Positions 30,248-49,128 of a stretch of DNA of 49,253 nucleotides are shown here, one piece after another (position 1 is the stretch's first letter; the number at the start of each line of letters is the position of its first letter). The notes under the pieces are model-generated. The model searched no databases and was not told where the DNA came from. It worked only from the letters and a program-made list of their open reading frames with translations. Both the position numbers and the translations under genes were made by a program. The stretch is from NCBI RefSeq assembly GCF_015062935.1, contig NZ_SUTM01000021.1, positions 1 to 49,253 on the forward strand, in the 5' to 3' direction. The stretch is from Methanobrevibacter sp. GTDB taxonomy: Archaea; Methanobacteriota; Methanobacteria; Methanobacteriales; Methanobacteriaceae.

Positions 30248-30249
30248 CT
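30230..30249 (-). terminator. Terminator of adhesin-like gene 1
   Basis: On the minus strand AGTGAGA and TCTCACT form a 7-bp stem with a 6-nt loop that includes part of the stop codon, followed by TTCTTTTTTTATTTTTAAAT. A clear hairpin plus U-run. Confidence 0.7.
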
Positions 30250-33200
30250 ATTTGATTGTTAATTTTACAGATTTGCTTGTAGCTTCGTATGTTACATCAC
30301 CTGCAAATGAAACTTTAGCAGTGAATTTGCCTTTTTTGGTTATTTTCAGGCTGAATGTTGCTTGACCTTTTGCGTTGGTTTTTGCTGTGTAGGTCTTGCC
30401 GTTTACTTTTAAAGTTACTTTTTTGCCTGCTTTGAGGTATGTTTTTCCATCGATGGATGATCCTTTGATGGTTTTTAAGGTTACTGTGTATTTTTTGGTT
30501 TTTGCAGTAGCCTTATATGTTTTTGCGCTTGCAGATATTGATGTTGTTTTCTTTTCAATGGTTACTTTGTGTACAGCCATGGTTGCGTTGTAGTCTTCAT
30601 CACCAAGGAATACTATTACAAATGTGTACAGACCTGCGTTTTTGAGGTTTATTTGAACATTTGCGAAACCGTTTTCATCTGTGGTCCTGTTTAATGTTAC
30701 ACCGTTGTAACCGATGTAGATGGTTTTGTTTGCAATAGGATTACCCATTTCATCTACAAGTTGGAATGTGAAGTTTCCACCACGTTCTCCTTCGTAGAAA
30801 TCACAAGCATATTGTGTGAAGTCACTGCTGTTAAATTGTGTAGCTTGTCTTACTGGAGCAAGATCATTTAATTTTAAAGTGATGTTGCTTGGTAAGTAGA
30901 AGTCATCACCAGCGTATGCTATTTCAACAGTAGCAGGAGAAGTAGCATTGAATGCAAAGAAACCGTTTTCATCAGTGGTTATGTTTACTTGTACGCCGTT
31001 TACAGTGTATGTGATTGTTTTGTTTGCAAGTGCGTCTCCCATAGCATTTACCAGTACACCGTCGATTAAACCAGTACCGTCAACTGTAAGGTCGTCGAAT
31101 CTGGTATCCATTTGAGCAGCGTCAAATGTATCTACTTGGTGGAATGGAGCATAGGTATCGTCACCTTCGTATACAACTACTACACTGTGTTCACCAGCAG
31201 TCAAGTTTTCAATAGGAACTACAGCAGTACCATTTACTAAAGGAACAACTTTTTCAATACCGTCAACAATAACACTGACATTACCGGTAGCACCAGGAAT
31301 TTCAACAGTCACATTAGTGTCTTCACCAACTTTGAAGTCAACAGGAGTTGTAATGTTTGCTTCTGTGGTTTCTTTTGTGACGCTTATTGCTTTGGATTCT
31401 ACTGCTCCTTTATGGGTGTCGTCACCTTCGTATACAACTACTACGCTGTGGTTTCCTTCGCTGATTGCTGGGATTGTGTAGGTTGCTTCTCCGTTTTCAT
31501 CTAATGGTAAGATGTTTTCTTCACCGTCTATGAATACGGATACGTTTCCGGTTGCTCCATGGATGGAGATTGTTACGTTAGTGTCTTTACCAGGAACTAC
31601 ATCGCCGATGGTAATGTTTGCTTCTGTGGTTTCTTTTTCAACACTAATTGTTTCGGATGCGACTGCACTGTTGTAGTTGTCATCGCCATCGTATACTGCA
31701 ACAATACTGTGGTCACCGCTAGCAATATCTTCAATGGTTAAAACAGCTACACCATCTTCATCTAAAGGAACTACATGTTCAACACTGTCAACAAAAATAG
31801 AAACATTTCCGGTAGCATTTGCAACAGTGACAATTACTACAGCATCGTCACCAGCTACAACATCGCTAGGGACATATATTTCAGGTTCAGCATCTTGTTT
31901 GATAACTCCGTTAAATGTGAAAGTTTTATTTGAAGCTAAACTATTACCGTTTCCGTCAAATTTAATTAATACTTCACCATTAGCAACGCATGGAATGTTG
32001 AAATTACCGTTTTCATCAGTGGTGACATTTTCTTTAACATCGCCAATTTCATATGAAACGGTTGCATTGCTTATAGGATTACCTTCAATGTCTGTTAATG
32101 TGACATTAACACTTAAATCTTTGTTAATTGAATCAACACTAATTTGAGTGTCTTTTCTTACAACAGTTAAATTGACAGTTTGGTTATCAACAGTTGCTTC
32201 AATTGCGTAACTTAATCCGTCAACATCAACAGTTGTTTTAACATTATTTGCGATAGTACCGTTTTCAATTCCTAAAACAGCATCAGTAGCATTAATTGTG
32301 AATTCTCTAGCAGGTAAGGTTCCTTCATAATCAGTTAAGTTTTCACCATCGAAGGATTTGAATGCTAATTCAACATCATTACCAGTTTGGTTTAATGTTA
32401 AAACCAAGTAATTTTCAGGGTTAACTATTTCTGAACTGACTTCTCTGATTTTTAAAACATAATTGGAAATGAAATTGGAAGTTGCAATGGTAGCATTATT
32501 AAATGTAGCGTTGTTGCTTCCCCACCAGTTGTCAGAGATATCCATATCAATAGTTTTACCAGCAGCAATTCCTATTTTAGCAATGTCATCTGATAAAATA
32601 ACGGAATTGTGTATAGCTACTGAGAAATTACCTGAGTTGAGAACTGCGATTATATATTCGACATTTTCAAATAAACATCCGTCAAATATTCTATGGGAAC
32701 CGTATGAAGTGCCGTCGGTTCTTGAGTAGAATAAGCTTACGGACTGTAAATTTCTGAATGTGGAATTATATACTTCAATATCTCCAGGTACTATAGTGTA
32801 ACCTCCTCCTGCAAGGTTCCAGGAGTTGATTCCACCAAATGCGTTTGGAGTGTATCTTCCACCTTGATCTTCGAATGTGGAGTTGATAATTGTTACATGT
32901 TCACTGGATCCGATTGCAAGACAGGTCAATGAATTTTGAGGCATGTATATGCGACTGGATAATTCATTAACTGTTCTGTTGGTAACAGTGAAAATGGAGT
33001 TTTCTATTGTGATATTACCTTTTTGACCACCAAATGCACCGATAGCTACTAAGTCCATATTCATTGCGTAAGCATCTAAACTGTCAATTACTTTAGAATT
33101 GTTCACGTATAATGTACCTTGGTTTGCAATAGTGGATAATCTGCCTGCGTGGTTTGCTTCAAATGTTGAATTATCAATTATTAAAACACCATCATTGTAA

Positions 33201-36200
33201 ATAGCTCCACCGTAATAAGCGTTTGCTCTTTTAGATGCATCTCCATATCCATTATCAAAGAAATATGAATTGTTTATTACTAGAGTACCAGCAGTATTAA
33301 TAGCTCCACCGTAGTTACCTTGTCCGTTAATGAATTTTACGTTGTCAATTTCTGCGTTAGCGCCTTCTTCAACATAAATTGCAGATTGGGTATCACGAGC
33401 AGCTCTGTTTAAGGTTACATTAGCTAATGTTAATTTAGCATTACCTGCTAAAGCAGTAATGAAGTAATCAGCAGCACTGTCTGAGACAATGACTTTGTCT
33501 GCATCTTCACCGACAAGCAATACGTCAACAGTTGTTGGAATTCTTAAATTTGTATTTAATTCACCTGTGTAATTGCCTTCTAAAACATGAACGGTAATAT
33601 TTGTAGATTTACTATAACCTTCGATTAATGCTTTGGAAATTGATTTGAAAGGACTGTCTTCACTACCGGTTCCGTTTTCATCATCACCAAGGCTGTCAGA
33701 TACATAGAATTCTACGCTGTCTAAAGCATCAGCAATGTTTGTAGATATAGTACCGTTTACATAGGTATCGTTTTCGGTTGCATATTCATAAACGCTTGTG
33801 AATTGATATTCAGTATCATTTTTAAATCCAACGTATTGCAAGGTTGCATTTTGATTGATTAAATCAGCTTTTCCAACTATAGAACCGTTAAAGTAGAAGG
33901 TTACTTGACCTCCTCCAATTATTGCACCTGATGGGTGGGATACTGTTACGGTTATGATATCTGATAATTCAGTTACATTTTTGCTGTTTGCAGTGATTGT
34001 TAAATCAGTTAAGTTTGCAAATACATTGTTTCCTGCACTAGGAGCTATAAATATATCATTTCCGCAAGATGCAGTATTGTTTTCAAAAGTAACATCTTCA
34101 ATGCTCATTTCACATACTTGAGAGGTTTTACCATGGTTTAATAAGTATATTGCACCACCGTTTCCTGCAGCAGTGTTGTTTATGAATTTACCTCCTTTGA
34201 TTTTAGCACCGGTAGTAACTAATCCTGCACCGTTTGCAGAAGCCCTATTGTTAATCATAGTAATGTTTTCTACAATGATTTGAGTAGGATTATTACCGCT
34301 GCTTCTATATTGAGCAACATAATTTGGAACTTCATTATTGATGAACTTATCATTGATTGAAGTAATGTTATTACCACCTGCATAAGCAATATTTGATGCG
34401 GTGCCTGTCACGGTATTTGAATCAAAGGTGTTGTTGATACTTACTAAATCACTTTGAACATAATATGCTGCACCACCGGAATAACCAGCGATTGTGTTTC
34501 CTTTAAAGGTATTGTTTTCTAAATATGTTACATGGCCATTATTGGTAGTTAACCAGAGTAAACCGGTTGAAGTTCCACCATTACAGTTTTCAATCACGGA
34601 ATTGGTCAAAGCTAAATTGTAAGCGTTGATTGCTTGACCGGTTCCATTAATGATTTTTATGTTGTCAATGATTACTCCGTCGTTAGGTGATTGAGCACGG
34701 ATAGTGCTGGAGTTTATTACAATATTGTCTTTCATTGTTAATGCATATGCATCTACAGGATTGCCGTCACAGTTGATTAAGGTTAAGTTAACCATTTTAA
34801 TTTCAAGGTTTTGACCAAATGTGAATATGTCTGATGCGATTGGCCACCATCCACTGCTAGAACTTGCATGTTCAGCATCAATTATGACATTTCCGTAGGA
34901 TTCACCGACAATTGTAATTTTTCCTACATTTGAATAGGATAAATCCCTGTTTTCAGATCCGTTGTATAAACCGTTTTTAATGTGTACGGTTAAATCTACA
35001 GTAGCTGCAGTTCCGTAATCTAAAGCTTTTTTAAGAGTTAAGAATGGATTATCTTCACTACCAGTACCGTTTTCATCATTTCCTTCAGTTGAAACCCATA
35101 CTTCTGCAGGGGTGTGATCGAACTCTACAGTTGCTGTACCGTTAATTACATCCACATCAAAAATATTTTCATCGGAATAAGCTTGTGTACCAGTAATTGT
35201 GTGGTTGCCGTTTTCTAACAATTTGTTAACGGTTAAAGTTGCAACACCTTCTGCATTGGAATTTGCTGAGCCAACATTTGCACCGTCAATAGCGAAAATG
35301 ACTTTAGCACCTTGAACGGTATTGCCCATGTCATCAGTAACGTTAGCTTTTAAGGTAAATCTTGTACCGTCGACTGCTACATCTTCAAAAGCAACTTTTG
35401 CATTGAAATCTGTTACAGAATAAAGTATAGCTGTTGTAGAGGTACAGTTTATGAATTCATTGCCTTTAAGATATGAATTTTGGAAAAATACAATTCCTCC
35501 ATTTGAACCTGTGTAAGTACAGTTGATGAAGGTATTGTCTGTAATATTTGCAATATTTTCTCCATTATTGTATCTGACAGCTAATGCTGCTGCACTACGG
35601 GAGCTGGTTAAATTCTTAAAGGTGTTTCCTTTAATGACTGATTTACCAGTACCTACATAAACTGCCGGGGTGTCTGCCCAGGAGCTTGTTGCAACACCAT
35701 TTTCAAATGTGTTGTTGATTAAAGTTACAAAACCTGTATGTGAGAAATATAAATCCACATATTGATTTCCTGAATTTTTGTTAAATTTGGAATTTGTAAT
35801 AGTTAAATTACCGTTTTCAGAATAAACAGCACCTAAATTGGTAACATAGTTTTCTTCAAATACACAGTTATCAATTGTTAGGTCACCTGCTGAAGTTACT
35901 GCAGAACCCATGTTAGCTTTACCATTAGTGAATTTAATGTTTTTTAATGTAACAATGGAGTCACTGCTTATTCCTGTAAAAATTGGAGAATCCCCATTTC
36001 CGTCAATTACAGTGGTACCGTCTTCAGCACCGATTAAGGTTAAACTTCCACCGTAATTTTTATGGGATAAATCAATTCTTAAGTTTGTATTGTTATCTCC
36101 AGAGTAAGTTCCACTACCTAAATAAATAACAGCATTATCGGATGCGTTGACATCGCTGATAGCTTTATTTATTGTTTCATATGGACTTGCTTCACTTCCC

Positions 36201-36424
36201 GCTCCGGTGTCTGAACCTTTTGCAGTTTCAACATATACTGTTTTGTTATATGTTGTTGAAGCATCGTCACTAAGTTTTGAATCATCATTTATTGTTAATT
36301 GTATTGCATTATCTTGGCCGACTGATGTTACATCATCAGATTCATTATCTTGAGCACTTACTGCTCCTAAAGATAATATAGCCAGTAAAACAATTGTTAA
36401 AAATAAAATTTTATCAAATTTCAA
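30248..36424 (-). CDS. Adhesin-like protein 1: three beta-helix modules plus Ig-like repeats
   Basis: 2058 residues, secreted. The signal peptide covers 1-24 (MKFDKILFLT to GAVSA). Three right-handed beta-helix modules begin near 50, 445 and 908, each opened by a DUF1565-like GxDxxGxGSExxPFxxIxKA motif and rich in NNTF/NSTF-type turns. From about 1370 the chain is Ig-like. Residues about 1505-1765 hold three tandem 87-residue repeats (TEANIT, ATGNVSVF(V/I)DG, YEGDDT). The C-terminal 100 residues are Lys/Thr-rich (KTYTAKTNAKG type), as in other Methanobrevibacter adhesins, and may contact pseudomurein. TTG 36424 is used with GAGGC upstream. Likely role: binding host, partner microbe or polysaccharide. 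Confidence 0.88.
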   Translation of the reverse strand: MKFDKILFLTIVLLAILSLGAVSAQDNESDDVTSVGQDNAIQLTINDDSKLSDDASTTYNKTVYVETAKGSDTGAGSEASPYETINKAISDVNASDNAVIYLGSGTYSGDNNTNLRIDLSHKNYGGSLTLIGAEDGTTVIDGNGDSPIFTGISSDSIVTLKNIKFTNGKANMGSAVTSAGDLTIDNCVFEENYVTNLGAVYSENGNLTITNSKFNKNSGNQYVDLYFSHTGFVTLINNTFENGVATSSWADTPAVYVGTGKSVIKGNTFKNLTSSRSAAALAVRYNNGENIANITDNTFINCTYTGSNGGIVFFQNSYLKGNEFINCTSTTAILYSVTDFNAKVAFEDVAVDGTRFTLKANVTDDMGNTVQGAKVIFAIDGANVGSANSNAEGVATLTVNKLLENGNHTITGTQAYSDENIFDVDVINGTATVEFDHTPAEVWVSTEGNDENGTGSEDNPFLTLKKALDYGTAATVDLTVHIKNGLYNGSENRDLSYSNVGKITIVGESYGNVIIDAEHASSSSGWWPIASDIFTFGQNLEIKMVNLTLINCDGNPVDAYALTMKDNIVINSSTIRAQSPNDGVIIDNIKIINGTGQAINAYNLALTNSVIENCNGGTSTGLLWLTTNNGHVTYLENNTFKGNTIAGYSGGAAYYVQSDLVSINNTFDSNTVTGTASNIAYAGGNNITSINDKFINNEVPNYVAQYRSSGNNPTQIIVENITMINNRASANGAGLVTTGAKIKGGKFINNTAAGNGGAIYLLNHGKTSQVCEMSIEDVTFENNTASCGNDIFIAPSAGNNVFANLTDLTITANSKNVTELSDIITVTVSHPSGAIIGGGQVTFYFNGSIVGKADLINQNATLQYVGFKNDTEYQFTSVYEYATENDTYVNGTISTNIADALDSVEFYVSDSLGDDENGTGSEDSPFKSISKALIEGYSKSTNITVHVLEGNYTGELNTNLRIPTTVDVLLVGEDADKVIVSDSAADYFITALAGNAKLTLANVTLNRAARDTQSAIYVEEGANAEIDNVKFINGQGNYGGAINTAGTLVINNSYFFDNGYGDASKRANAYYGGAIYNDGVLIIDNSTFEANHAGRLSTIANQGTLYVNNSKVIDSLDAYAMNMDLVAIGAFGGQKGNITIENSIFTVTNRTVNELSSRIYMPQNSLTCLAIGSSEHVTIINSTFEDQGGRYTPNAFGGINSWNLAGGGYTIVPGDIEVYNSTFRNLQSVSLFYSRTDGTSYGSHRIFDGCLFENVEYIIAVLNSGNFSVAIHNSVILSDDIAKIGIAAGKTIDMDISDNWWGSNNATFNNATIATSNFISNYVLKIREVSSEIVNPENYLVLTLNQTGNDVELAFKSFDGENLTDYEGTLPAREFTINATDAVLGIENGTIANNVKTTVDVDGLSYAIEATVDNQTVNLTVVRKDTQISVDSINKDLSVNVTLTDIEGNPISNATVSYEIGDVKENVTTDENGNFNIPCVANGEVLIKFDGNGNSLASNKTFTFNGVIKQDAEPEIYVPSDVVAGDDAVVIVTVANATGNVSIFVDSVEHVVPLDEDGVAVLTIEDIASGDHSIVAVYDGDDNYNSAVASETISVEKETTEANITIGDVVPGKDTNVTISIHGATGNVSVFIDGEENILPLDENGEATYTIPAISEGNHSVVVVYEGDDTHKGAVESKAISVTKETTEANITTPVDFKVGEDTNVTVEIPGATGNVSVIVDGIEKVVPLVNGTAVVPIENLTAGEHSVVVVYEGDDTYAPFHQVDTFDAAQMDTRFDDLTVDGTGLIDGVLVNAMGDALANKTITYTVNGVQVNITTDENGFFAFNATSPATVEIAYAGDDFYLPSNITLKLNDLAPVRQATQFNSSDFTQYACDFYEGERGGNFTFQLVDEMGNPIANKTIYIGYNGVTLNRTTDENGFANVQINLKNAGLYTFVIVFLGDEDYNATMAVHKVTIEKKTTSISASAKTYKATAKTKKYTVTLKTIKGSSIDGKTYLKAGKKVTLKVNGKTYTAKTNAKGQATFSLKITKKGKFTAKVSFAGDVTYEATSKSVKLTIK
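31158..31940 (-). repeat. Three tandem 261-bp repeats inside adhesin-like gene 1
   Basis: Equivalent points (TCGTCACCTTCGTATAC and variants) fall at 31158, 31419 and 31680, an exact 261-bp period or 87 codons. The first two are nearly identical across tens of bases. Outer limits are approximate. Confidence 0.8.
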
Positions 36425-36604: not shown

Positions 36605-36635
36605 AAAAAATAAGGTTAATTTTTCCCTATTTTTT
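36605..36635 (-). terminator. Imperfect AT-rich stem-loop after adhesin-like gene 2
   Basis: AAAAAATAAGG and CCCTATTTTTT pair with one mismatch around a 9-nt loop, spanning the gene's stop codon. U-rich sequence follows on the minus strand. Confidence 0.4.
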
Positions 36636-39600
36636 AATTGTTATAGTATTGGTAATTTTGGACTTTCCATAAGTGGAATATATCTTGTATTTGCCCGGAT
36701 TTAATGTTAGTTTAATGCTAGCTATTCCTTTGCTGTTGGTTTTTGCGGTGTATTTTTTGTTTTTAATCTTGAAAGTTATTTTTTTGCCTTTCGCTATTTT
36801 TCCTTTATTTGTAACGAGCTTTGCTTTAAATGTAACTTTTTTAACTTTCTTTTTGGAAATGTTTTTTGCAGTCAATAAAGGTTTCACTGTTATCTTATTT
36901 GTTGCTTTGTATTTTCCATATTGTGTTGTTATTGTGTATTTTTTAGCTTTCAGGTTAATTTTCATTGATGCATAACCATTTTTATTGGTTTTAGCAGTGT
37001 ATGTTTTTCCGTTAATTGTAAATTTAACTGTTTTTCCCTGACCGACTGCCTTTCCTCCTGCGGCAATTATACGTACCTTGAATTTAGATCCGCTGGTGTA
37101 ATACATTATCAAATCCTTATTTTCAGATATTGGACTGAGTACTTTAACTGTATTCTCGACATATTCTCCAGTTACTGGATTTATTGCAGTTACAAGATAG
37201 CTGTTAGGATTAAATTCCATGCTTAGTTTTATTTGGCCTTCAGAGTCGGTTTTATATGTGTAATTTATTCCGTTAATAATCACATTAACGCTTTTATTTG
37301 TTATCAATGAATTGTTTTTATCATAGAATGTTGCTGTGTAATATTGGCCGTCTCCTAACACTTTTAAAAGATTATTTACAGTTATTGTTGGTGTTATTGT
37401 TAATTTATAGCTTTCGGATAATCCGTCAAAAGGATTTATCACGGTAATGATATGATTTCCAGGATTTAAATTCAAGTCAAAGTAGAATATTCCTTCATCG
37501 CTGGTTGTTGCAAAATAGTTTGTTCCGTCAATGCCTATAATGAAATCCTTATTTTTAATTCCATTGCCTGCGCTGTCTAAAAACTTAAGTGTTAGATATG
37601 GGCTGTCGCCATATGTTTTAACTTCGTCATTACCCAATATTGTTGTTAAAACGTCAATGGTTGTCTTGTTGAATGAATATTCTTCAGAACTTTCATTTGC
37701 AAAATAACATTCAGCCTCATAATGGCCAGGCTTTAAGTTAATGTCTAAGGTTATCCATCCGTTTTCATCTGTAGTGCAGTTGTATACTGCATTATCCAAT
37801 ATTACAGTAATTATTCTATTAGCTATTGGTCTTCCTGAATCGCTTGTAAGCAATGCATGGAATTGAGTTGAATTTCTGTAGTATTTCACTAAGCTTGGAG
37901 CATAAAGCTTTGTAAATAAGTTTGAAACGTATAATTTAATCAGATTGGAGCTTGGTCTTAGATTATCGTCACCATTGAATATTACATTAACGTTGTGCAT
38001 TCCTGAAGTGGTATCAACCTTAACGACTGCTTTTCCTTCACTGTTTGTTTTTGTGGAATAGGTATTGTTTTCAATAATAAAGGTAATATCCTTATTTGAA
38101 AGCAATTCTCCGTTTTCATCATGCAACACAATTGTGAATGTATCATTAGTGTTGATTTGAACATCGTCAACATAGATTATTGTTTTAGTACGGTTATCAC
38201 TGGTTTCAATATTCACTGAATTAATGCTGCTGCTTGGTAAATATAAATCATTTCCCTTGAAACTTGCTTTAACGGTGTATTTGCCGTAATCCAAATTAAA
38301 TTTAAATATTGCATTACCGTTTGCATCAGTAATTTCAGTGATGTGTTTAATGGACTTTCCGTTGGAGTTAAGTATTTCAAGTGTAACTTCACTGTAGGAT
38401 ATGCCGTTGTTGAGGCAATCCGCTAATGTTAATGTGAAATTGACCAAATTATTTTCATCTTCATTAAGGTCTTGGGCAGTTATCTGTGTGGATGTCTGCT
38501 TGCTGTCAACTACTAAAATTCTATTTGTATTTGATGAATAAATGTAGTTTGGATTTGAAAATGTGTATTCGATTTCATATTCCCCTATATTTAAATTTAG
38601 AGGTAGAATAGCTACTCCTTTGTCATTTGTTGTAATGTCATATTCTTTTCCATCTATTTTCATATGGATTTGCATATTTGGTATTGCTCTGCCGTTAATA
38701 TCCCTTAATGTTGCTTCGAATAATCTTTGATCGTTAACATTCATGATTATATCATTAGCTGTCAGGCTAACCGGCATTTTATAGACTGTTATTTTATTTG
38801 AACCGCTTCCATAAATGTTATAGTATGGATTTGAGTATTTGTAGGTTGCATTGTACTCTCCCGGGTTTAATTTTATTTGTAGGCGGGCAGTACCGAAGGC
38901 GTCTGTTATCGCTTCAAAAGACTGGGACCATTTTTCATTGTATATGCTTATGGTTATTGTTTTCCCATATTGATTATAGGCATTAGGATCGTTTAAGTCA
39001 ATTGTAAAGAATTTGTTTTCACCATAGTACTGTAACAAGTCAGTTCCATTAATGCTTACGGATTCAAGGACCGCATTTTTATCAACTACAATTGTTGCCG
39101 CATTTGTAGCATCATTGTACCACAGGCTGCCGTCATAATCAATTGTTGTCAGATATGTTCCTTCAGCCAAATCAATTATAAATGAAGCTTCTCCATTAGG
39201 GTCTGTAGTGTTGGTGTATGTTTTGACTAGCCTTCCCTGATAGCAGTTCAGTGTTACAGTTCCATTGTTAATCCTGTTTCCGTACATATCATTTAAAACA
39301 ACTGTATATATGCCGTTTAAAGGAATCACTTTATAGTGGAAACCTGTAACCATTGTTAAAACCTTGCTGACAGTTATTTTACCTGAACCTTCAGCGGAGC
39401 CGTAAATGTTATCTCCTTTGTAAGTTGCTTTAACATTATAGGTTCCAGGAAGATAGTTTATAGTTAAACTGGCTATTCCATTTTCATCAGTCTGCAATAT
39501 GAAATTGTCTGTCAGGTTGCCCTGTGAAATTGCAACCTGAATGTTTTCTCCTCTAATTAAGGTTCCGTAGGAATCTTTTAATGTGATGTTGTAAAGATTT

Positions 39601-42600
39601 CCTTCACCGTACAATGTTGCATCAGGCACAATCATTGTTGAATTGACTGGCTTAATTATTATGTGAGAGCTGTTTGAACTGTATGCATACCAGGAATCTC
39701 CCATGTATTCTACCTTAATGTTATATTCCCCAACAGCCAGATTAAGCACGATTTCACTTCTTCCGTAAAAATCAGTATTTGAAGTGATTGTCCTTGAATA
39801 TCCATTTGGTGAAATAACTGTAAATGTTAAATTGTAATCAACTAAATTTTTACCGTTTTCATCATGTAAAATTCCATAAAATACATTATTTTTACCATAA
39901 TAGGTGTAGTTGTATGATATGACCTCGGTAAATAATGTTATAACCTCAATTTTTGCTGAAGCGTTGGATTTCTCATATTTTCCGTTTCCATAATAATTAA
40001 CTAGAACTTCATATTTTCCAATCGGATAATCTATATCGAAGCTTCCACGACCTTCATCATTGGTTTTAATTGTAAACACTTTGCTTTCATTGTTTGAATC
40101 AATAACTTGTATAGTCAATGTTTGATTTGCAATTTTAAAGCCGTTTGCATTAATCAAATCAACATAATATTTGTTATCCCTTCCTTTAACAGTAACATTC
40201 TCAATTAATATCACTGTATTTGTGTTTCTAAGGTTTAAATCTAAAACTTGGTTGTCAATAGTTGCATATATCTTAAAATCACTTGAATTCAAATCATAAC
40301 TTACATTGGCATAAGCAACATTTTCTTTAAGATAATCTGAGCTAGGAGTAATGTTTCCCAAATCAATGGCGAAATAAACAGGTCTTGACGGCAATATTTT
40401 TCCAATTTTTTTAATGTTCCCGTCATCATCCACTACATGGTCAAGGGATGCTTCAACAGTATTTTCATAGTATGATTCAAATGTCATTATTACCCAGTCG
40501 GTCAATTTTAAATTTCCGAGGAAAATGAATATTTTGGAATCATCAGGCTTCTTGTTGTCTCCCCACCAGTTGCTTGAATAATCTACATCACCTGAATTGG
40601 AGTAAATGTCGTTTCCTGAATAAAGTGCAGTGTTGTTTACAAATACACAGTAATGTACTTCTTTTGAATTTGAAACGGCTCCACCAAATGATGCTTCATT
40701 GTTTATGAATGTTGAATAGGTGATTGTCTGTGCGCTGACTATTCCTTCACCGTAGGATGCTTGACTGTAGTCGGTGTATCTGTTTAAATTGCTGATAAAA
40801 ATGGAATTGTTTATCATTTCAGCTTCAATTAAAGCTCTTCCTCCATAATCAAGTCCGTGATTGTTGTAAAATGATGAGGAATTAACTGAAGTTGCCTTTG
40901 CTATTTTTCCTGTGTTGTCTTTAAAGGTACAGTTGTTTATATATCCGTAAAATGATCCGTAATTGTCTGCAATATCAAATCCGATGCCTATGGTTGTGTA
41001 GGAATTGCCCATATTTGTAAAGATGTTGTTTGTAAAAGTTGAATTTTCAATGTATGCATATCTGTTTTGGCTGGAATATTGTGAATTTGAAGCTCCAAGC
41101 AATGAGGAACGTGAATATGTGTAAGGGTGAAGGGTTATGATTCCCATGGTGTTGTCCCTAAATTCAGAGCTGTAAATTTCTATTGATGATGTAATTGTAA
41201 ACAGGGCATTATAATTTTCCATACCTGCAATTGTATAGAAATTGGATATTTTTTCAAAATTACAGTTTTCAATATTGACTTTTGCAATTCCACTGACTAT
41301 AGATCCGCTAATGTCTGAGAATTTACTGTCCTTTATATTTATTAAACCGTTATTGTTAATTCCGGATGATGAATAAATCACCGCTCCTGAGCTGATTGAG
41401 GTAAATGTACAGTTTTCTACAGTTAAAGTACCTCCTCTAACCATAAACAGGTCATCGTTATATTCCCTTACCTCGCAACCGAAATCGATGTTTTTAACAA
41501 TAACGTTTCCTAATTCTTGCACAGTCATTATGCTGGCGCCATTAACCCTTAAAAACTTAACATTTCCAAGTCCAGCTATTGAAATGTTTTTTGAAATAGC
41601 TACATTAGAATTGGAACTGCCGTTGTAGGTTCCCTCAAGTAAGCAAATGGTATTTCCGTCCACAGCATGAGATACCGCATATCCAAGTGTCCTGTACGGA
41701 TTTTCCAAACTTCCTGATTCGGGTCTGTCCTGTCCCCAGGGAGCTATAAAGTAATTATATGCTGAATATCCTTTTCCAATTGTTAATGTTAATTTTTGAT
41801 TGTCAACAGTTGAATAGACACTGCAGTCAAGGGTATTTCCAATCAGATAGTTTTCAAATGATTTTGTCAGGCTTCCTGATGAATATAAAAATCTTCCGTT
41901 CTGTGCTTCAAACTGAACTGTACGTGTTGGGATTGATTCATCTTCTTTTAAATCAAAGCTATTGTTCCCGTCAAACCATTTAAATGAGGTTATGAATTTT
42001 GAAGCAGTTCCAACAGAATTGTTTCCATCATCTATTTCAAATGATGCAATAGCCCAGTTGCTTATATCAATATTTTTGAAATATTCAACTGCAGGGCCTG
42101 AATTTACTCCCCACCAGTTGTAAGGAGCATATAATACTGATTTGTCCCCTCCACCAATAATTCCATGTAAAATAGAGGAATAGGTTATGTTAAAGTTTGT
42201 ATGTCCGCTTGATATTGACAGACCAAAAATTGTGTTTTTTGCTGTAAAATTTGATTCAAAGACTGATAATGTGTTAAATAGTTTTGATGAAGTTGGGATG
42301 ATTTTACAATTATCAACATATGCATCACAACCTTTAAATGAGAAGCGTCCGTTAATGTTTGAATTTAAAAGTTTAACGTTTGCTTTTTCAGCTTCCAGCA
42401 GTGTTAATGTTGAATTTTCTATTAGAATAATGCTTGTCTGATATGCTGAAGGTTCATATTCATCGTTTGATTTTAAATGTGAAATTTGAGATTTGATGAC
42501 ATTAACGTTTTTGAAGTTATATATGTTCGGTAAATCAGCATCGCTTTCGATTGCATCATTCAATTTTGAATTTGATATTGTACAATCCCCTAAATTGGTG

Positions 42601-43196
42601 ATACTTTTTGCAATGTTTTTGGATTTTGAGTTTGAAACGACTGAATTATCAATAATTAACTCTCCTTCATTCAAAAATGTTGCCATAATGCTGTTCATGT
42701 TGTTGAATGAAGAATTGTTAACCAAAAGTTTTCCCTGATTTTTAATTACTCCCAATTGGGAATATGAGTCAGTAAAACCGTTAATGAATTTTATATTATT
42801 CAATATTAATGATGAACCCTTATTTATATTGAAGAAATAATTTTTTCCTTCACCATTTAATGTAACGTCTCCTTGTGTTTCTATTGTAATATATTTGTTG
42901 ATGTTAATGTTGGTGTTTAATGATCCGCTGTAAGTTCCTTCTTTTAAAATGATTCTGGAGTTGTTGCCTGCAATACTGACTGCATGTTTGATGGTTTGGA
43001 TAGGCGAAGCCTCACTTCCGATTCCATCCTCATCACTTCCATTAGGGCTTACATATAATTCATTTATATTTGGTTCTTCAGTAGGTTCTATAAATGTGGT
43101 ATTGCTGTCATTAGCACTAACAACCATCATAGATGACAGCATTACTGTTAGCAATAGCAATACTAATGTGATTTTTTTATTTAAAATTAATAACAC
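36627..43196 (-). CDS. Adhesin-like protein 2: beta-helix modules plus about ten Ig-like repeats
   Basis: 2189 residues, secreted (signal NKKITLVLLLLTVMLSSMMV to VSAND). Beta-helix modules begin near 47 (YVSPNGSDEDGIGSEASPIQ) and 482 (FIAPWGQDRPESGSLENPYR). From about 1000 to the end run Ig-like/Big_1-type repeats of roughly 90-100 residues with a recurring NGxI..xxxxTDENGxA..x(L/I)xxGxY pattern. The last two are compact, Lys-rich KTYTAKTNKNG and KKYTAKTNSKG domains like the C terminus of adhesin 1. The coordinate uses GTG 43196, but this codon lies inside the SD GAGGTG. The codon at proper spacing is ATT 43187, so the true start may be non-canonical. Confidence 0.87.
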   Translation of the reverse strand: MLLILNKKITLVLLLLTVMLSSMMVVSANDSNTTFIEPTEEPNINELYVSPNGSDEDGIGSEASPIQTIKHAVSIAGNNSRIILKEGTYSGSLNTNININKYITIETQGDVTLNGEGKNYFFNINKGSSLILNNIKFINGFTDSYSQLGVIKNQGKLLVNNSSFNNMNSIMATFLNEGELIIDNSVVSNSKSKNIAKSITNLGDCTISNSKLNDAIESDADLPNIYNFKNVNVIKSQISHLKSNDEYEPSAYQTSIILIENSTLTLLEAEKANVKLLNSNINGRFSFKGCDAYVDNCKIIPTSSKLFNTLSVFESNFTAKNTIFGLSISSGHTNFNITYSSILHGIIGGGDKSVLYAPYNWWGVNSGPAVEYFKNIDISNWAIASFEIDDGNNSVGTASKFITSFKWFDGNNSFDLKEDESIPTRTVQFEAQNGRFLYSSGSLTKSFENYLIGNTLDCSVYSTVDNQKLTLTIGKGYSAYNYFIAPWGQDRPESGSLENPYRTLGYAVSHAVDGNTICLLEGTYNGSSNSNVAISKNISIAGLGNVKFLRVNGASIMTVQELGNVIVKNIDFGCEVREYNDDLFMVRGGTLTVENCTFTSISSGAVIYSSSGINNNGLINIKDSKFSDISGSIVSGIAKVNIENCNFEKISNFYTIAGMENYNALFTITSSIEIYSSEFRDNTMGIITLHPYTYSRSSLLGASNSQYSSQNRYAYIENSTFTNNIFTNMGNSYTTIGIGFDIADNYGSFYGYINNCTFKDNTGKIAKATSVNSSSFYNNHGLDYGGRALIEAEMINNSIFISNLNRYTDYSQASYGEGIVSAQTITYSTFINNEASFGGAVSNSKEVHYCVFVNNTALYSGNDIYSNSGDVDYSSNWWGDNKKPDDSKIFIFLGNLKLTDWVIMTFESYYENTVEASLDHVVDDDGNIKKIGKILPSRPVYFAIDLGNITPSSDYLKENVAYANVSYDLNSSDFKIYATIDNQVLDLNLRNTNTVILIENVTVKGRDNKYYVDLINANGFKIANQTLTIQVIDSNNESKVFTIKTNDEGRGSFDIDYPIGKYEVLVNYYGNGKYEKSNASAKIEVITLFTEVISYNYTYYGKNNVFYGILHDENGKNLVDYNLTFTVISPNGYSRTITSNTDFYGRSEIVLNLAVGEYNIKVEYMGDSWYAYSSNSSHIIIKPVNSTMIVPDATLYGEGNLYNITLKDSYGTLIRGENIQVAISQGNLTDNFILQTDENGIASLTINYLPGTYNVKATYKGDNIYGSAEGSGKITVSKVLTMVTGFHYKVIPLNGIYTVVLNDMYGNRINNGTVTLNCYQGRLVKTYTNTTDPNGEASFIIDLAEGTYLTTIDYDGSLWYNDATNAATIVVDKNAVLESVSINGTDLLQYYGENKFFTIDLNDPNAYNQYGKTITISIYNEKWSQSFEAITDAFGTARLQIKLNPGEYNATYKYSNPYYNIYGSGSNKITVYKMPVSLTANDIIMNVNDQRLFEATLRDINGRAIPNMQIHMKIDGKEYDITTNDKGVAILPLNLNIGEYEIEYTFSNPNYIYSSNTNRILVVDSKQTSTQITAQDLNEDENNLVNFTLTLADCLNNGISYSEVTLEILNSNGKSIKHITEITDANGNAIFKFNLDYGKYTVKASFKGNDLYLPSSSINSVNIETSDNRTKTIIYVDDVQINTNDTFTIVLHDENGELLSNKDITFIIENNTYSTKTNSEGKAVVKVDTTSGMHNVNVIFNGDDNLRPSSNLIKLYVSNLFTKLYAPSLVKYYRNSTQFHALLTSDSGRPIANRIITVILDNAVYNCTTDENGWITLDINLKPGHYEAECYFANESSEEYSFNKTTIDVLTTILGNDEVKTYGDSPYLTLKFLDSAGNGIKNKDFIIGIDGTNYFATTSDEGIFYFDLNLNPGNHIITVINPFDGLSESYKLTITPTITVNNLLKVLGDGQYYTATFYDKNNSLITNKSVNVIINGINYTYKTDSEGQIKLSMEFNPNSYLVTAINPVTGEYVENTVKVLSPISENKDLIMYYTSGSKFKVRIIAAGGKAVGQGKTVKFTINGKTYTAKTNKNGYASMKINLKAKKYTITTQYGKYKATNKITVKPLLTAKNISKKKVKKVTFKAKLVTNKGKIAKGKKITFKIKNKKYTAKTNSKGIASIKLTLNPGKYKIYSTYGKSKITNTITIKK

Positions 43197-43298
43197 CTCA
43201 ACAAATTTTGTAAATAGTCAATTATATTATAAATTTATTAAAATATTTTATAAAAAAGTTTCCATTAAAAAAAGTAAAATAGAAAAGAAAAAAGGAAT

Positions 43299-46200
43299 CT
43301 ATTCTTCATTTTCCCTTTCTTTTCTCTTATAGCCGATAATTAACAGTAATAATACAATGATTGCCAAAGCGACAAAAGTCATCATTGACTTGTCATCATC
43401 GACTATTTCATCTAATTTTTCTGTAATTTCGTAGGATTTACTTACACTCTGAGCACCTGAATCGGAACTGTCAGCTGAATTGGAAGTTTCACCTTGACCT
43501 CCACCATCAGAACTTGATGATGCAGCTGCATTGGATATCATTCCAACTGTAGATAAACTTGAATCATAATTAGAACTGTTTACTTTACTTTGACTGTTGG
43601 AATTGGTTGTTCCGTCAACGTTTGAATTTGGATTGGATGTGCTTGAATTGTAGTTTCCGGTAACTTTTTGGCCAGTATAAGTATTTCCCGGAATGAATCC
43701 ATATGAATTTGTGTTTCCACTATCTCCAGGAGTATATGGTGTTCCAGGATTTCCTGTACCACTTCCGCCAGTGCCTGTGCCGCTTCCAGGTCCATAGTTG
43801 TTTCCAGATCCCTCATTGTTTCCATTTCCACCAATAGTTCTGCCGGTAGATGTACTTGATTCTGTTGTACTTGGATTGTAGTTGACTGAAGGATTGTTTC
43901 CATCACCCCCATGTCCTTTAGAATCATCATCAGGATTTACTTCTATTGGAGGATTTGAAGGTTCATCATCAACTATATTAGGATTCCAATTAATCATTTC
44001 TCTTTTAATCGGATAAAAACTGTCACGACTCATTGCTTTCCACACGGAATCGTCCGGCCCTGTCTTTCCCCAGTAGTTATATCTCATATCAATGTCCTGT
44101 TCACCTCCAATAACTCTTGAGTGGAATGTATTTCCGCTAGGTGCCACATTATCGACAATGTTTGTATCACGTACAGTGATATTCGCATATCCGATGTTAA
44201 ATGCACCTCCACCGTTTAAAGCTCTGTTATTGGATATTGTAGAGTTGTAAATGTTTATATGGTCCTGAACATGGCCGTAGTACTCATATGAATTGTATTC
44301 GATAGCACCACCATATCTGGCAGAATTATTTGAAATAACACATCTTTCAATGATGAAGTTTTTGGAAATTTCCAATACTCCACCGCTTGTACCTGCAGTA
44401 TTCAGCATAAATATTGAATCCAGAAGTTTTCCATCATTAGCTTTAGCATAAATAACTCCCCCATTGTTGGTTGCTTGATTGTAATAGAACTCTGAATTTT
44501 TAGTTTCAAGTATATTATAAGCTCCGTAAATAACTCCGCCGTTAAATTCACTGTAGTAACGGTAATTGTCCAAATCAACAGATCCTAATGACCTTCTTGT
44601 ATCATTTGCTCTGTTGTTTACAAACTCACAATTATTAATTTTTAAATCAATATTGGAATTTGCAGAACGGGATGTTAAGCTATCGAGCGGAGATGAAATT
44701 ACTCCTCCGATTTTAGCTGAATTTTTCATAAATGTTGAATTTTCCATTGAAATGCCGGTATTTTTAGTGTATATTACACCTCCCTCACCGACAGGATTTT
44801 CACAAAGTGAAGAGTAAGTGTAATGATATCCTGTAGTTATAGACCAGCTGCTTCCGCCAATTCTTATGGTACAGTAATCCAGTGATGTTAGTGCAGTATT
44901 ATTCGCAAATAATGAATTTTTAATTGCTATTTCATTATTGGAATCTGTAAAGATAACTCCACCATGGACTCCTTGATTATTGTAGAATACTGATGAGTCA
45001 ATATTCAATTTACCATAATCAGCAATAACACCTCCGGTATGACCTAAATTATTGTAAAATGCGGATGCATTAATGTATAGTTCTCCATTATTTAAAATAG
45101 CTCCTCCTTTACCGGTTTTGCTGCAATTAAGAGTGTGAGCTGATTTCATATCACCATCTTCATCTATTACGATATCATGGTCAAATATAGGATTTGAATT
45201 ATCATAGTATGATGAGGAATTGCAGATAACAGAATTTACAATGGACAGTTTACCATTATTTATAAAGACTGATCCTCCATCTACATTATGTGCATTTTGG
45301 ATGGTAATTCCGTTAATTGAAAGAATTCCGCTTTGTGTGATATTGAATAACTGGCTTGATTGCGCATCAATTACAACGTTTTCACCGTTGCTGTGTATAG
45401 TCACGTTCTTATCAATGAGTATACCAGTTTCATTGTAAAGTCCTGGACCCACATAAATTACAGCATGATTTAAACTGTTTTCAATGGCTTTTGTGATAGA
45501 AGCATATGGGCTGTAGATGCTTCCGTCTCCACTTTCATCACTGCCGTTGGCTGAAACATAAATGTCAATAGGTGAATTGTTTTTAATAGTTCCATATTTA
45601 CTGTATACAGCTTCATCCGCTCTTTTAGATCCATTGGAACTTATTAAATAGTTATTAGTAATGCTGTTGTGTAAATTAATGTTTGATATTATCATAACTG
45701 CATAATCATCTCCGTTTACAGAAAATGATTCGATGTGGTTATTGATTACATCATTTTTTGTTGATGAGCCTTTGAAATAAACACCGGATTGGTCAGTCAC
45801 ATCTGAAGTTCCTTTAATTTCAATATCGTTCTGTTCAATGTATCCGAAATTGGAATTGGTAGCATAATATCCGTATATGGATGATGCATTTCCTTTTAAT
45901 GTGTTTTTTGTAATGTTATCATACATTGATTTAGTGGATTCAATGAAAACTAATTTATTTGCATCCGAAAGGATAACATTGCCTGCAATAACATTATATT
46001 TTGATGAATCCATGAGAATTGCTTTAACATCATCTCCTTTAATGTAAAATTCATTGTTATTTATGTTATTGTAATCTGCTTTTCTCAATTCAACCGCTGA
46101 AATTCTATTGCCGTTCATATTAATGGAATTATTCTTAAATGTATTATTTTCCCCATTGCTAATAATCAGTATGTTTGATTTTGATGAATTAAAGCTGTTA

Positions 46201-49049
46201 TTGATAATTGAATTGTTTGAAGAACTTTTAAGTTCAATTGTTGAATTTACAAAGTTAATGTTTGAAATTGTCACATTTGATGCTTTATTTAAGATTATTG
46301 AAACAGTAGTTGGAATGCTGTTGTCATATGAGCTGATGACAACCGGAGAGCTAATTTCCATTTTTTGGCCATTTGTCAAATTATATAATAATATTATACC
46401 GTTTTCCTCAATATTTCCTTTTATCAGTTGATTATTATTGAAATAGGTATTGAAGTTATTATCACTGACAACATATGAATTGGAATATATATTTACTTCA
46501 GATTCATTATTCGCATCAATTTTAGATATTGGATTTGTAATATTGGTTATAATTGTGTTGTTATTTATTGTAATGTTATTTACAAAGTTCATTGATGAAA
46601 TTGCAGCATTTCCGATTCCCAGCACATCTTCAATTGATTTTATATTTTTCAAGTCTCCGCCAAATGCTGAAATTGTATTATTTTCAATTGTCACATTGCT
46701 TGAGCTGTAAACTCCTACACCATAAACACCATTGCTTTCGCTGTATAATGTATTGTTTGCAATTGTAGCGTTTTCCACCATATGCAATTCAATCAGATAA
46801 GCCATTCCTTCAGCATAGATTACAATTTCATTGTTTGTAATGCTGTTGTTGGTTAGTTTACCTATTAAATTAGCAAGAGCAATACCATATGCATAACCAT
46901 CAGCTTTGATATTGATTTTATTGTTGTCAAATTCACTGAAAGCTATTGCATCAGTATAAATTGCTTCTGCCATTCCTGATGAAATAATAATGATTGTATT
47001 ATCGTTAATTTCAAATCCTTTTGAAAATTCCCTGTTCAATCTTCCATAAGAATTCACCGCAGGTGCAGTAATACCGTAAACATAATCGGTTTTTGAGTTA
47101 ATGTAAATATTATTTTTAGAAATTATTTCATTGTTACAAACTCCCTGAACTAAAATCACGGCATTTGATTTGCTTCCCTGCCTATAGATATCTGTGATGT
47201 TGTTTTCACTAATTGTAATGTCATCAACGTTGTTAATTATGACTGCTTCTTTATCATAATTGATGAAATTGAAATCTCTTAGAATGGATCCTTCTGCATC
47301 CCCTTCAAAGGTTATTGTAACATTGAATAGGAGATTGTCCATTTTATTGCTGATAACAGTAATTTTATCATCAAAGATTAGATTTTTATTGGTTAAAAAT
47401 GTTAAAAAGACAACTTTTGGCTTATTTTCCTCAAACTTGTAAATGAAATATCCGTCTTCATCAAAGAACTGGTTGAAGTTATCATCATTAATTATAAGGG
47501 CTGTTGACTTTAAAATTACTCCATTTACAATATTGTCCATTTCAGTATTGGATTCCTTGTCGGTAATCTGTATATTAATACCTTCTGACCTGTTTGTTTC
47601 AATAATATTGTCTTTGATAATTGAATTATAAACCAGGCCTTCTATTGAAATACCATAACTTTCACTGGTTATCCTGTTGTCTGTAATGGTGTTGTTGTAG
47701 TATCTTACATTACTGTTCATTGTGGATGGTATTGCAATACCAATACTGCTTGTAGTTATAATGTTTTTGCTAACAGTATTATAACTACCTAATATTGAAA
47801 CACCTGAATCATGATTATTTTTTACTTTATTGTGATGAACGGTAGTGTTTTCACCTGTAAGCGATATACCTATTCCATAATTACCAATATTAATGTTATT
47901 GTTATATGCTTCTATATTGTTTGATAATGACATACCGACTGAAACATCATTAAAGGTCACATTATTGTCATATATTAAACCTTTTGAACCTTCAGCACAG
48001 TCAGACCTGATACCTGTCTGCTGGCTTGTTCCACTTAAAGTATTGTTATAAACTGTAAATTCACTTCCGCTAACAGAAATACCAACTGCGCTGTTGGTAA
48101 CTGTATTTCCATAAACTGATACGTTATTACCATTTAAATTAATCCCGATTGACCCTTTAATAATCGTATTATTCGCAACAACTGTGCCGTCGTGGCTGGC
48201 ATATTCAAACTGTAATATTATAGACATTGGTAATGTACAAAATCCTTTCAGATAGTTGTAGGAAATTATGTTGCCTTTACATAATGGACTTCCAGAATAG
48301 TCGGCATGACTAAATGGATTAAAGTAAATCAAATTTGTAACAGACATATCTGAATATGACAGGACTTCTAAACTATTATGTGAAATCAGGTTATAGTGTG
48401 AGTCTCCCATAATAATATTTGTACTCACGTAAGTTTTCATGTCATTGTAAATAATCCGATTATTACTGGACCATCCCATAGGCATTGCATAAACTCCTCC
48501 GGAATTTGCTATTCTTATTGTATTGTAAGAAATTAGATTATTATTGGAATGTGATAACCATATACCATGTAGTTGACCTACAGTAACACCTAGGATTTTT
48601 AATGTAGCTTTTGTATTATTAATAGTTAAATTTGTAATTGTTGATCCATCACTTCCTTTAATCAGATGTATAAAACCATTTTTTATCTGGTCATTTGGAG
48701 TAATGGGCATTAAAGTTAGTTGGCGGTCAATAACAAATGCTCGCTCGGAAATATTTCCAATTTTCAATGTATCTCCACTTGAAATACTGGCGGTTTTTAA
48801 TATTTTACCAGTTCTAACATCAAAATAATTTTCATAGTTATCCTGTCTAATTTCAATGACTTTACCTTCCTCAGCACTTAAATTATCATCAATTTGGATA
48901 TCTGTGCTTGATGCCTGCAGTATATGCTCGTTTATAAGAGATGTATTTTCATTTCCGGATATAGTTTCATTATTTGCAGCAACAAAATTTAATGATAACA
49001 TTATGAAACAAATAAACATTAATGAAATCAATATTTTTTTCTTATTTAT
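43299..49049 (-). CDS. Adhesin-like protein 3: NosD/polymorphic-repeat beta-helix, low-complexity stalk, C-terminal membrane anchor
   Basis: About 1916 residues. A long NosD-like right-handed beta helix (about 100-1150, repeats of NNxIxxNxI) is followed by a DUF1565 opening (YVSANGSDESGDGSIYSPYA) near 1157 and a polymorphic-membrane-protein-type helix with GGVIY/GGAI repeats to about 1690. A Gly/Ser/Asn/Pro/Thr stalk (about 1690-1865) leads to a transmembrane helix (FVALAIIVLLLLIIGY) and a basic tail KRKERENEE, an anchor unlike that of adhesins 1 and 2. The SD GGGAGGTGA is followed by ATA 49049, which would give the normal signal peptide MNKKKILISLMFICFIMLSL. The nearest canonical start, TTG 49031, would delete all its basic residues. 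Confidence 0.85.
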   Translation of the reverse strand: MNKKKILISLMFICFIMLSLNFVAANNETISGNENTSLINEHILQASSTDIQIDDNLSAEEGKVIEIRQDNYENYFDVRTGKILKTASISSGDTLKIGNISERAFVIDRQLTLMPITPNDQIKNGFIHLIKGSDGSTITNLTINNTKATLKILGVTVGQLHGIWLSHSNNNLISYNTIRIANSGGVYAMPMGWSSNNRIIYNDMKTYVSTNIIMGDSHYNLISHNSLEVLSYSDMSVTNLIYFNPFSHADYSGSPLCKGNIISYNYLKGFCTLPMSIILQFEYASHDGTVVANNTIIKGSIGINLNGNNVSVYGNTVTNSAVGISVSGSEFTVYNNTLSGTSQQTGIRSDCAEGSKGLIYDNNVTFNDVSVGMSLSNNIEAYNNNINIGNYGIGISLTGENTTVHHNKVKNNHDSGVSILGSYNTVSKNIITTSSIGIAIPSTMNSNVRYYNNTITDNRITSESYGISIEGLVYNSIIKDNIIETNRSEGINIQITDKESNTEMDNIVNGVILKSTALIINDDNFNQFFDEDGYFIYKFEENKPKVVFLTFLTNKNLIFDDKITVISNKMDNLLFNVTITFEGDAEGSILRDFNFINYDKEAVIINNVDDITISENNITDIYRQGSKSNAVILVQGVCNNEIISKNNIYINSKTDYVYGITAPAVNSYGRLNREFSKGFEINDNTIIIISSGMAEAIYTDAIAFSEFDNNKINIKADGYAYGIALANLIGKLTNNSITNNEIVIYAEGMAYLIELHMVENATIANNTLYSESNGVYGVGVYSSSNVTIENNTISAFGGDLKNIKSIEDVLGIGNAAISSMNFVNNITINNNTIITNITNPISKIDANNESEVNIYSNSYVVSDNNFNTYFNNNQLIKGNIEENGIILLYNLTNGQKMEISSPVVISSYDNSIPTTVSIILNKASNVTISNINFVNSTIELKSSSNNSIINNSFNSSKSNILIISNGENNTFKNNSINMNGNRISAVELRKADYNNINNNEFYIKGDDVKAILMDSSKYNVIAGNVILSDANKLVFIESTKSMYDNITKNTLKGNASSIYGYYATNSNFGYIEQNDIEIKGTSDVTDQSGVYFKGSSTKNDVINNHIESFSVNGDDYAVMIISNINLHNSITNNYLISSNGSKRADEAVYSKYGTIKNNSPIDIYVSANGSDESGDGSIYSPYASITKAIENSLNHAVIYVGPGLYNETGILIDKNVTIHSNGENVVIDAQSSQLFNITQSGILSINGITIQNAHNVDGGSVFINNGKLSIVNSVICNSSSYYDNSNPIFDHDIVIDEDGDMKSAHTLNCSKTGKGGAILNNGELYINASAFYNNLGHTGGVIADYGKLNIDSSVFYNNQGVHGGVIFTDSNNEIAIKNSLFANNTALTSLDYCTIRIGGSSWSITTGYHYTYSSLCENPVGEGGVIYTKNTGISMENSTFMKNSAKIGGVISSPLDSLTSRSANSNIDLKINNCEFVNNRANDTRRSLGSVDLDNYRYYSEFNGGVIYGAYNILETKNSEFYYNQATNNGGVIYAKANDGKLLDSIFMLNTAGTSGGVLEISKNFIIERCVISNNSARYGGAIEYNSYEYYGHVQDHINIYNSTISNNRALNGGGAFNIGYANITVRDTNIVDNVAPSGNTFHSRVIGGEQDIDMRYNYWGKTGPDDSVWKAMSRDSFYPIKREMINWNPNIVDDEPSNPPIEVNPDDDSKGHGGDGNNPSVNYNPSTTESSTSTGRTIGGNGNNEGSGNNYGPGSGTGTGGSGTGNPGTPYTPGDSGNTNSYGFIPGNTYTGQKVTGNYNSSTSNPNSNVDGTTNSNSQSKVNSSNYDSSLSTVGMISNAAASSSSDGGGQGETSNSADSSDSGAQSVSKSYEITEKLDEIVDDDKSMMTFVALAIIVLLLLIIGYKRKERENEE

Positions 49050-49085
49050 CTTTTCACCTCCCTTTACATTTAATCAAATTAAAAC

Positions 49086-49128
49086 ATAATCAATTCTTTT
49101 TTATTTTTTATAATATCCCATTGATTAT
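49086..49128 (-). promoter_or_regulatory. Promoter region of adhesin-like gene 3 with split ATAATCAAT/ATTGATTAT palindrome
   Basis: ATAATCAAT at 49086-49094 is the reverse complement of ATTGATTAT at 49120-49128. TATA-like TTTAAATTATAA lies at about 49125-49137 on the minus strand, so the two arms flank the expected start site near 49105. The TAATCAA half-site is the same as in the adhesin 1 palindrome. Confidence 0.4.

Follow-up and report, generated by a model that had tools for sequence, protein, structure and literature searches.

Start codons of the adhesin-like genes

Where does translation begin in large surface genes whose codon at the proper distance from the Shine-Dalgarno (SD) sequence is neither ATG, GTG nor TTG? 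The question is raised by two neighbouring genes in the window (the whole stretch of 49,253 nucleotides analysed, contig G000:C21), which belongs to a 2.5 Mb Methanobrevibacter draft genome in 44 contigs. The features of the locus are collected in Table 1.

Table 1. Genes and start-site features of the window
Feature	Position	Strand	Description
Gene 1, adhesin-like neighbour (contrast)	30248..36424	(-)	ordinary TTG start; Ig-like Big_1/Big_3_5 repeats
Gene 2, adhesin-like protein	36627..43187	(-)	2186 aa counted from ATT; signal peptide and Ig-like repeats (Big_1/Big_3_5); 19 further species have an orthologue
ATT, probable initiation codon of gene 2	43185..43187	(-)	6 nt past GAGGTG; kept in 12 orthologues
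Shine-Dalgarno GAGGTG of gene 2	43194..43199	(-)	holds in-frame GTG 43196, the rival start
Gene 3, adhesin-like protein	43299..49049	(-)	1916 aa counted from ATA; signal peptide, repeats of the Beta_helix/NosD type and a transmembrane anchor at the C-terminus; 19 further species have an orthologue
TTG, first canonical codon of gene 3	49029..49031	(-)	rejected start; inside signal peptide, past basic residues; missing there in many orthologues
ATA, initiation codon of gene 3	49047..49049	(-)	sole frame-consistent codon at SD distance; ATH in 19/20 orthologues
Shine-Dalgarno GGGAGGTGA of gene 3	49054..49062	(-)	4 nt (AAAG) upstream of ATA; GGAGGTG present in most orthologues
Stop codon TGA, in frame ahead of gene 3	49074..49076	(-)	no canonical codon between TGA and ATA

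The repeat domains recognised by Pfam (Beta_helix/NosD in gene 3, Ig-like Big_1/Big_3_5 in genes 1 and 2), together with the signal peptides read by eye in genes 2 and 3, mark these products as large secreted proteins. All three are typical of methanogen adhesin-like proteins, with a predicted role in surface attachment or adhesion, and share with those described from Methanobrevibacter the signal peptide and the beta-helix or Ig-like repeats (PMC2812497, PMC12134236). They differ in the non-AUG starts, of which we found no description in the open-access papers searched; nor did a search of the open-access literature for AUU, AUA or ATT starts in archaea or Methanobrevibacter give anything relevant. 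Vesicles of M. smithii and M. intestini are rich in adhesin-like proteins, which speaks for expression of the class taken as a whole (PMC12134236).

Read directly on the minus strand, the start region of gene 3 consists of TGA, GGGAGGTGA, AAAG and ATA, followed by AAT AAG AAA AAA ATA TTG, exactly as the first-pass annotation had described the AUA start and its SD spacing. The eight codons from the stop to the ATA include no ATG, GTG or TTG. After the ATA the protein continues NKKKILISL, and the first canonical codon, TTG 49031, comes after every basic residue, which bears out the earlier argument that only a start at ATA gives a normal signal peptide. In gene 2, GAGGTG, TTATTA and ATT follow one another and the protein goes on with LNKKITL. 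The nearest canonical codon is here GTG 43196, lying inside the SD itself as had been noted, with the ATT 6 nt further on.

The start of gene 2

Gene 2 probably starts at its ATT, as gene 3 does at its ATA, judging from the SD spacing and from the ATT found at the same place in 12 orthologues. This part of the earlier proposal stands less firmly than that for gene 3, since GTG 43196, which had itself been named as the alternative, is in frame in all 12. Looking for ATG in other strains gave a mixed answer, with these 12 orthologues showing ATT without ATG and the others carrying ATG (six) or GTG (one) at or beside the slot. If translation began instead at the GTG within GAGGTG, gene 3 would be the only one of the two with a non-canonical start, a reading that we hold unlikely, though a live rival. 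Besides being in frame, the GTG stands at a spacing of exactly 6 in each of the 12 orthologues with ATT, whereas in those with ATG it is mostly out of frame or missing, and the signal peptide extended to MLLILNKK that it would produce is not impossible. However, a GTG inside the SD would have no separate SD ahead of it, the ATT is retained and its T never varies, and the constant distance between GTG and ATT may simply reflect shared descent. Moreover, the same GTG/ATT geometry is found in the tiaS gene of the same genome, broken there by an in-frame TAA, so that use of the ATT is proven in that case (see below).

An AUU start in a housekeeping gene

The tiaS gene of the window's genome, coding for tRNA-Ile2 agmatidine synthetase (PF08489; G000:C9 31316, minus strand), has an ATT start within GGTGATT TAA ATT AAT GTT TTA CAT ATT GGA ATA GAT GAC. 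Because the TAA stands in frame directly before the ATT, a start at the GTG or anywhere else ahead of the ATT is impossible; the canonical codon that comes next is located past the conserved GIDDTDSP motif, which a start there would delete. As read from its sequence, tiaS supplies proof from within the genome that translation can begin at AUU. The slot holds ATT in all 17 Methanobrevibacter copies read, while the codon preceding it varies from ATG to TAA. Beyond the genus, ATA or ATT occupies the slot in eight other genera (L190, L253, L255, L259, L265, L266, L267, L270, L273, L274, L275, and L276), in one case (L275) with a stop again immediately ahead; elsewhere in the family, outside the genus, the codon is ATG or, in group g12, TTG. 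The enzyme that enables decoding of AUA by tRNA-Ile2 thus itself begins at AUU or AUA.

Conservation of the gene 3 start codon

Orthologues of gene 3 were searched for in 67 genomes of the genus, and 19 were found besides the window's own copy, mostly of similar length. The codon in the SD slot has the form AT-N in all 20 copies, being ATA, ATT or ATC in 19 and ATG in one (L058), and its first two bases are invariant. The ATG that had been suggested as a check in other strains does occur, once in the slot and, in a second orthologue (L056), one codon ahead of an ATT, but the rest have ATH. The three isoleucine codons swap freely among the orthologues; mapped on a phylogeny built from the remainder of the protein, the third base has changed at least nine times, two of these changes being to ATG (with L056 scored as G). 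These two orthologues, and several of gene 2, tolerate ATG, indicating that the constraint is not absolute.

Usable canonical codons are absent from gene 3. In 12 of the 20 copies, the window's included, there is none from the in-frame stop to the ATH. Only GGT GAA AGT in L046 and AGG GGT GAA AGG in L057 separate the stop from the ATT, and with three to four non-start codons in between an upstream start is impossible in both. As to a downstream start, it would take the TTG at 49031 for the true beginning of gene 3 and the ATA region for an untranslated leader. TTG is a canonical start and is found at the same place in several orthologues; nevertheless, it has no SD at a suitable spacing, and a start there removes all the basic residues, which the orthologues preserve through different codons. 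Other orthologues have no canonical codon at this place, and the first one downstream is codon 17 in L043, 34 in L052 and 12 in L057, inside or beyond the signal peptide, which also argues against the TTG of the window's copy. A start at 49031 is therefore very improbable, and we retain the ATA as the start of gene 3.

A third adhesin family and the decayed-start explanation

A non-canonical codon kept between species is found in gene 3, in tiaS and in a third adhesin family, represented in the same genome by IRSKTLFVSLIM (C1:14518). In this family the codon is ATT in all 26 species read, five bases past GAGGTG or a similar sequence in 25 of them, the spacing favoured by ATG genes. Again there is no usable canonical codon, 23 of the 26 having none from the in-frame stop to the ATT. 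Codon periodicity (second positions near-fixed, third ones variable) starts at the codon after the ATT, and the sequence ahead of it has no periodicity of the coding type.

Adhesins are typical phase-variable genes, and the odd codons could be decayed starts, that is, phase-variable or switched-off alleles, as had been suggested. This general property is the sole pointer in that direction, nothing in the sequences supporting it. Against it, ATH is conserved in some 20 species for gene 3 and ATT in the 26 of the third family, the reading frames being long and the SDs intact in most cases, and the third base of gene 3 drifts among A, C and T but rarely to G. We find switched-off alleles hardly credible. 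An error of sequencing or assembly at single bases can practically be discarded, given that, draft though the window's genome is, the same codon class recurs in genomes that were sequenced independently, some of them closed in a single contig (L054 from G034, L055 from G011, and L053 from G014). The same odd start across so many species points to a retained feature, probably one that limits expression, rather than to a defective allele or a misread base.

Some further candidates came up. A separate adhesin family of about 690 aa (L032 and L033, around position 1470-1500) begins GGGGAAAAGCATATAATT / GGGGTAAAGCGTATAATA and has no canonical codon until the middle of the signal peptide; its relatives L034, L037, and L038 have ATG. 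Non-secreted ORFs with a candidate ATT at SD distance are located at G000:C4 152680 (+), C9 73285 (-), and C9 33507 (-), some of them acetyltransferase-like. Two are related to each other (about 330 aa) and the third has 264 aa; orthologues of one of them occur in 66 of the 67 genomes. An adenylate-kinase-like ORF (C20-3483) was discarded as ATT-started, as a TTG two codons downstream fits better.

Candidate near-cognate starts across the genome and the genus

The phenomenon is wider than the first-pass annotation had seen, extending from gene 3 to the third adhesin family and tiaS and to an enrichment at the level of the genus. A census over 2.0 Mb of the window's genome took the ORFs that have an SD of at least 6 nt but lack a canonical start 3-9 nt from it. 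In these, ATH was enriched at the right spacing: at spacing 5, the commonest one among ATG genes, it made up 15 of 52 codons, compared to about 10% elsewhere (P about 1e-4). Over the 67 genomes, the pattern GGAGGTGA-N4-ATH-AAR gave 35 matches, 34 of them without a nearby ATG, compared to a background of six true matches when shifted by 3 nt and six for the reversed pattern. These counts are at the pattern level, gene 3 alone having been traced to its gene, and it makes up six of the 34. Considering any codon found after the full GGAGGTGA-N4 and before AAR, ATH (34) surpasses TTG (22), ATG (10), and GTG (3), which makes isoleucine codons the commonest class behind a perfect SD with lysine as second codon.

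Nine secreted ORFs of at least 400 aa in the window's genome have an ATH at SD distance and no nearby ATG, and 51 have a canonical start with an SD. The former have stronger SDs than ATG-started secreted genes, reaching at least 6 nt in eight of nine against seven of 23 (P 0.005, both sets restricted to SDs of at least 5 nt), in a census based on a simple hydrophobicity rule and with few secreted ATH genes. Within the 400 kb examined of genome G034, no secreted ATH ORF was detected.

A probable mechanism and its parallels in bacteria

It is likely, in our opinion, that translation begins at near-cognate AUH codons positioned by a strong SD, the case being firm for gene 3 and probable for gene 2, with the codon class held by selection. 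The initiator tRNA, with anticodon CAU, would pair with the first two bases of AUH and mismatch the third, which is why initiation there should work, albeit more weakly than at AUG; a strong SD would hold the ribosome and partly offset the mismatch. Selection would keep AUH in the adhesin-like genes and tiaS of Methanobrevibacter, either to limit how much is made of very large secreted proteins or to tie that output to the stringency of initiation. The long retention of ATH, despite the easy step to ATG, suggests a preference for a reduced or conditional rate. From all this we infer initiation with methionine at AUH, a low yield, and throttling or conditional control as its purpose; throttling by a near-cognate start behind a strong SD appears to be the best mechanism and is compatible with everything found. 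Low yield is not demanded of every adhesin, since gene 1, like the majority of adhesin genes in the genome, begins with ATG or TTG. An initiator tRNA of a special kind, with an isoleucine anticodon, was also considered, and ARAGORN, run on 80% of the genome, revealed only ordinary tRNAs and no odd initiator-like one, so that no new tRNA is invoked.

Parallels can be drawn with bacteria. As cited in one study, infC, the gene of IF3, starts at AUU in E. coli and at AUC in Streptomyces, and IF3 represses the non-canonical starts of both infC and sigR (PMC5472188). In Streptomyces, sigR starts at GTC in 32 of 34 species (GTT in two), behind a strong AGGAGGTG SD, and is misannotated by gene finders; as in the adhesins, the non-canonical start is conserved and its third base drifts while the codon stays non-canonical (PMC5472188). 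The likeness to infC resides in a near-cognate AUH start kept by selection and affecting the rate of translation, while the difference is that infC is bacterial and autoregulatory on IF3, whereas here mainly surface adhesins are involved and the fidelity factor aIF1 starts with ATG. In the case of sigR, a bacterial sigma factor, repression by IF3 has been demonstrated experimentally, whereas for the archaeal adhesins such control is putative. By analogy, the adhesin AUH starts would resemble those of infC (AUU) and sigR (GTC).

To our knowledge, archaea lack IF3, and aIF1 is the natural archaeal candidate for such control of initiation. The AUH start might then define a translational regulon in Methanobacteriaceae, with giant adhesins and tiaS responding jointly to the stringency of initiation, e.g., to the level of aIF1. 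This is a speculative idea that we regard as rather doubtful; if true, it would be the archaeal counterpart of the bacterial IF3/AUU circuit. An AUH-started, autoregulated aIF1 is rejected by its ATG start.

Recurrent, conserved AUA, AUU and AUC initiation in a common genus of gut archaea would make near-cognate starts a standing archaeal feature and not a curiosity. Gene finders limited to ATG, GTG and TTG would clip the signal peptides of adhesins and mis-start tiaS, and such mis-called starts would mislead lists of surface proteomes and vaccine targets.

The region upstream of gene 3

A promoter inverted repeat shared by AUH-started genes was rejected as a mark of the regulon, as the repeat precedes gene 3 in several species but is no more frequent over the genome than in shuffled sequence. 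Upstream of gene 3, the inverted repeat ATAATCAAT-N25-ATTGATTAT (window 49086-49094 and 49120-49128) flanks a TATA-like stretch and is a possible operator. It is kept in L041 and L042, and L043, L044, L054, and L055 carry TAGTC..GACTA arms, both arms being altered jointly.
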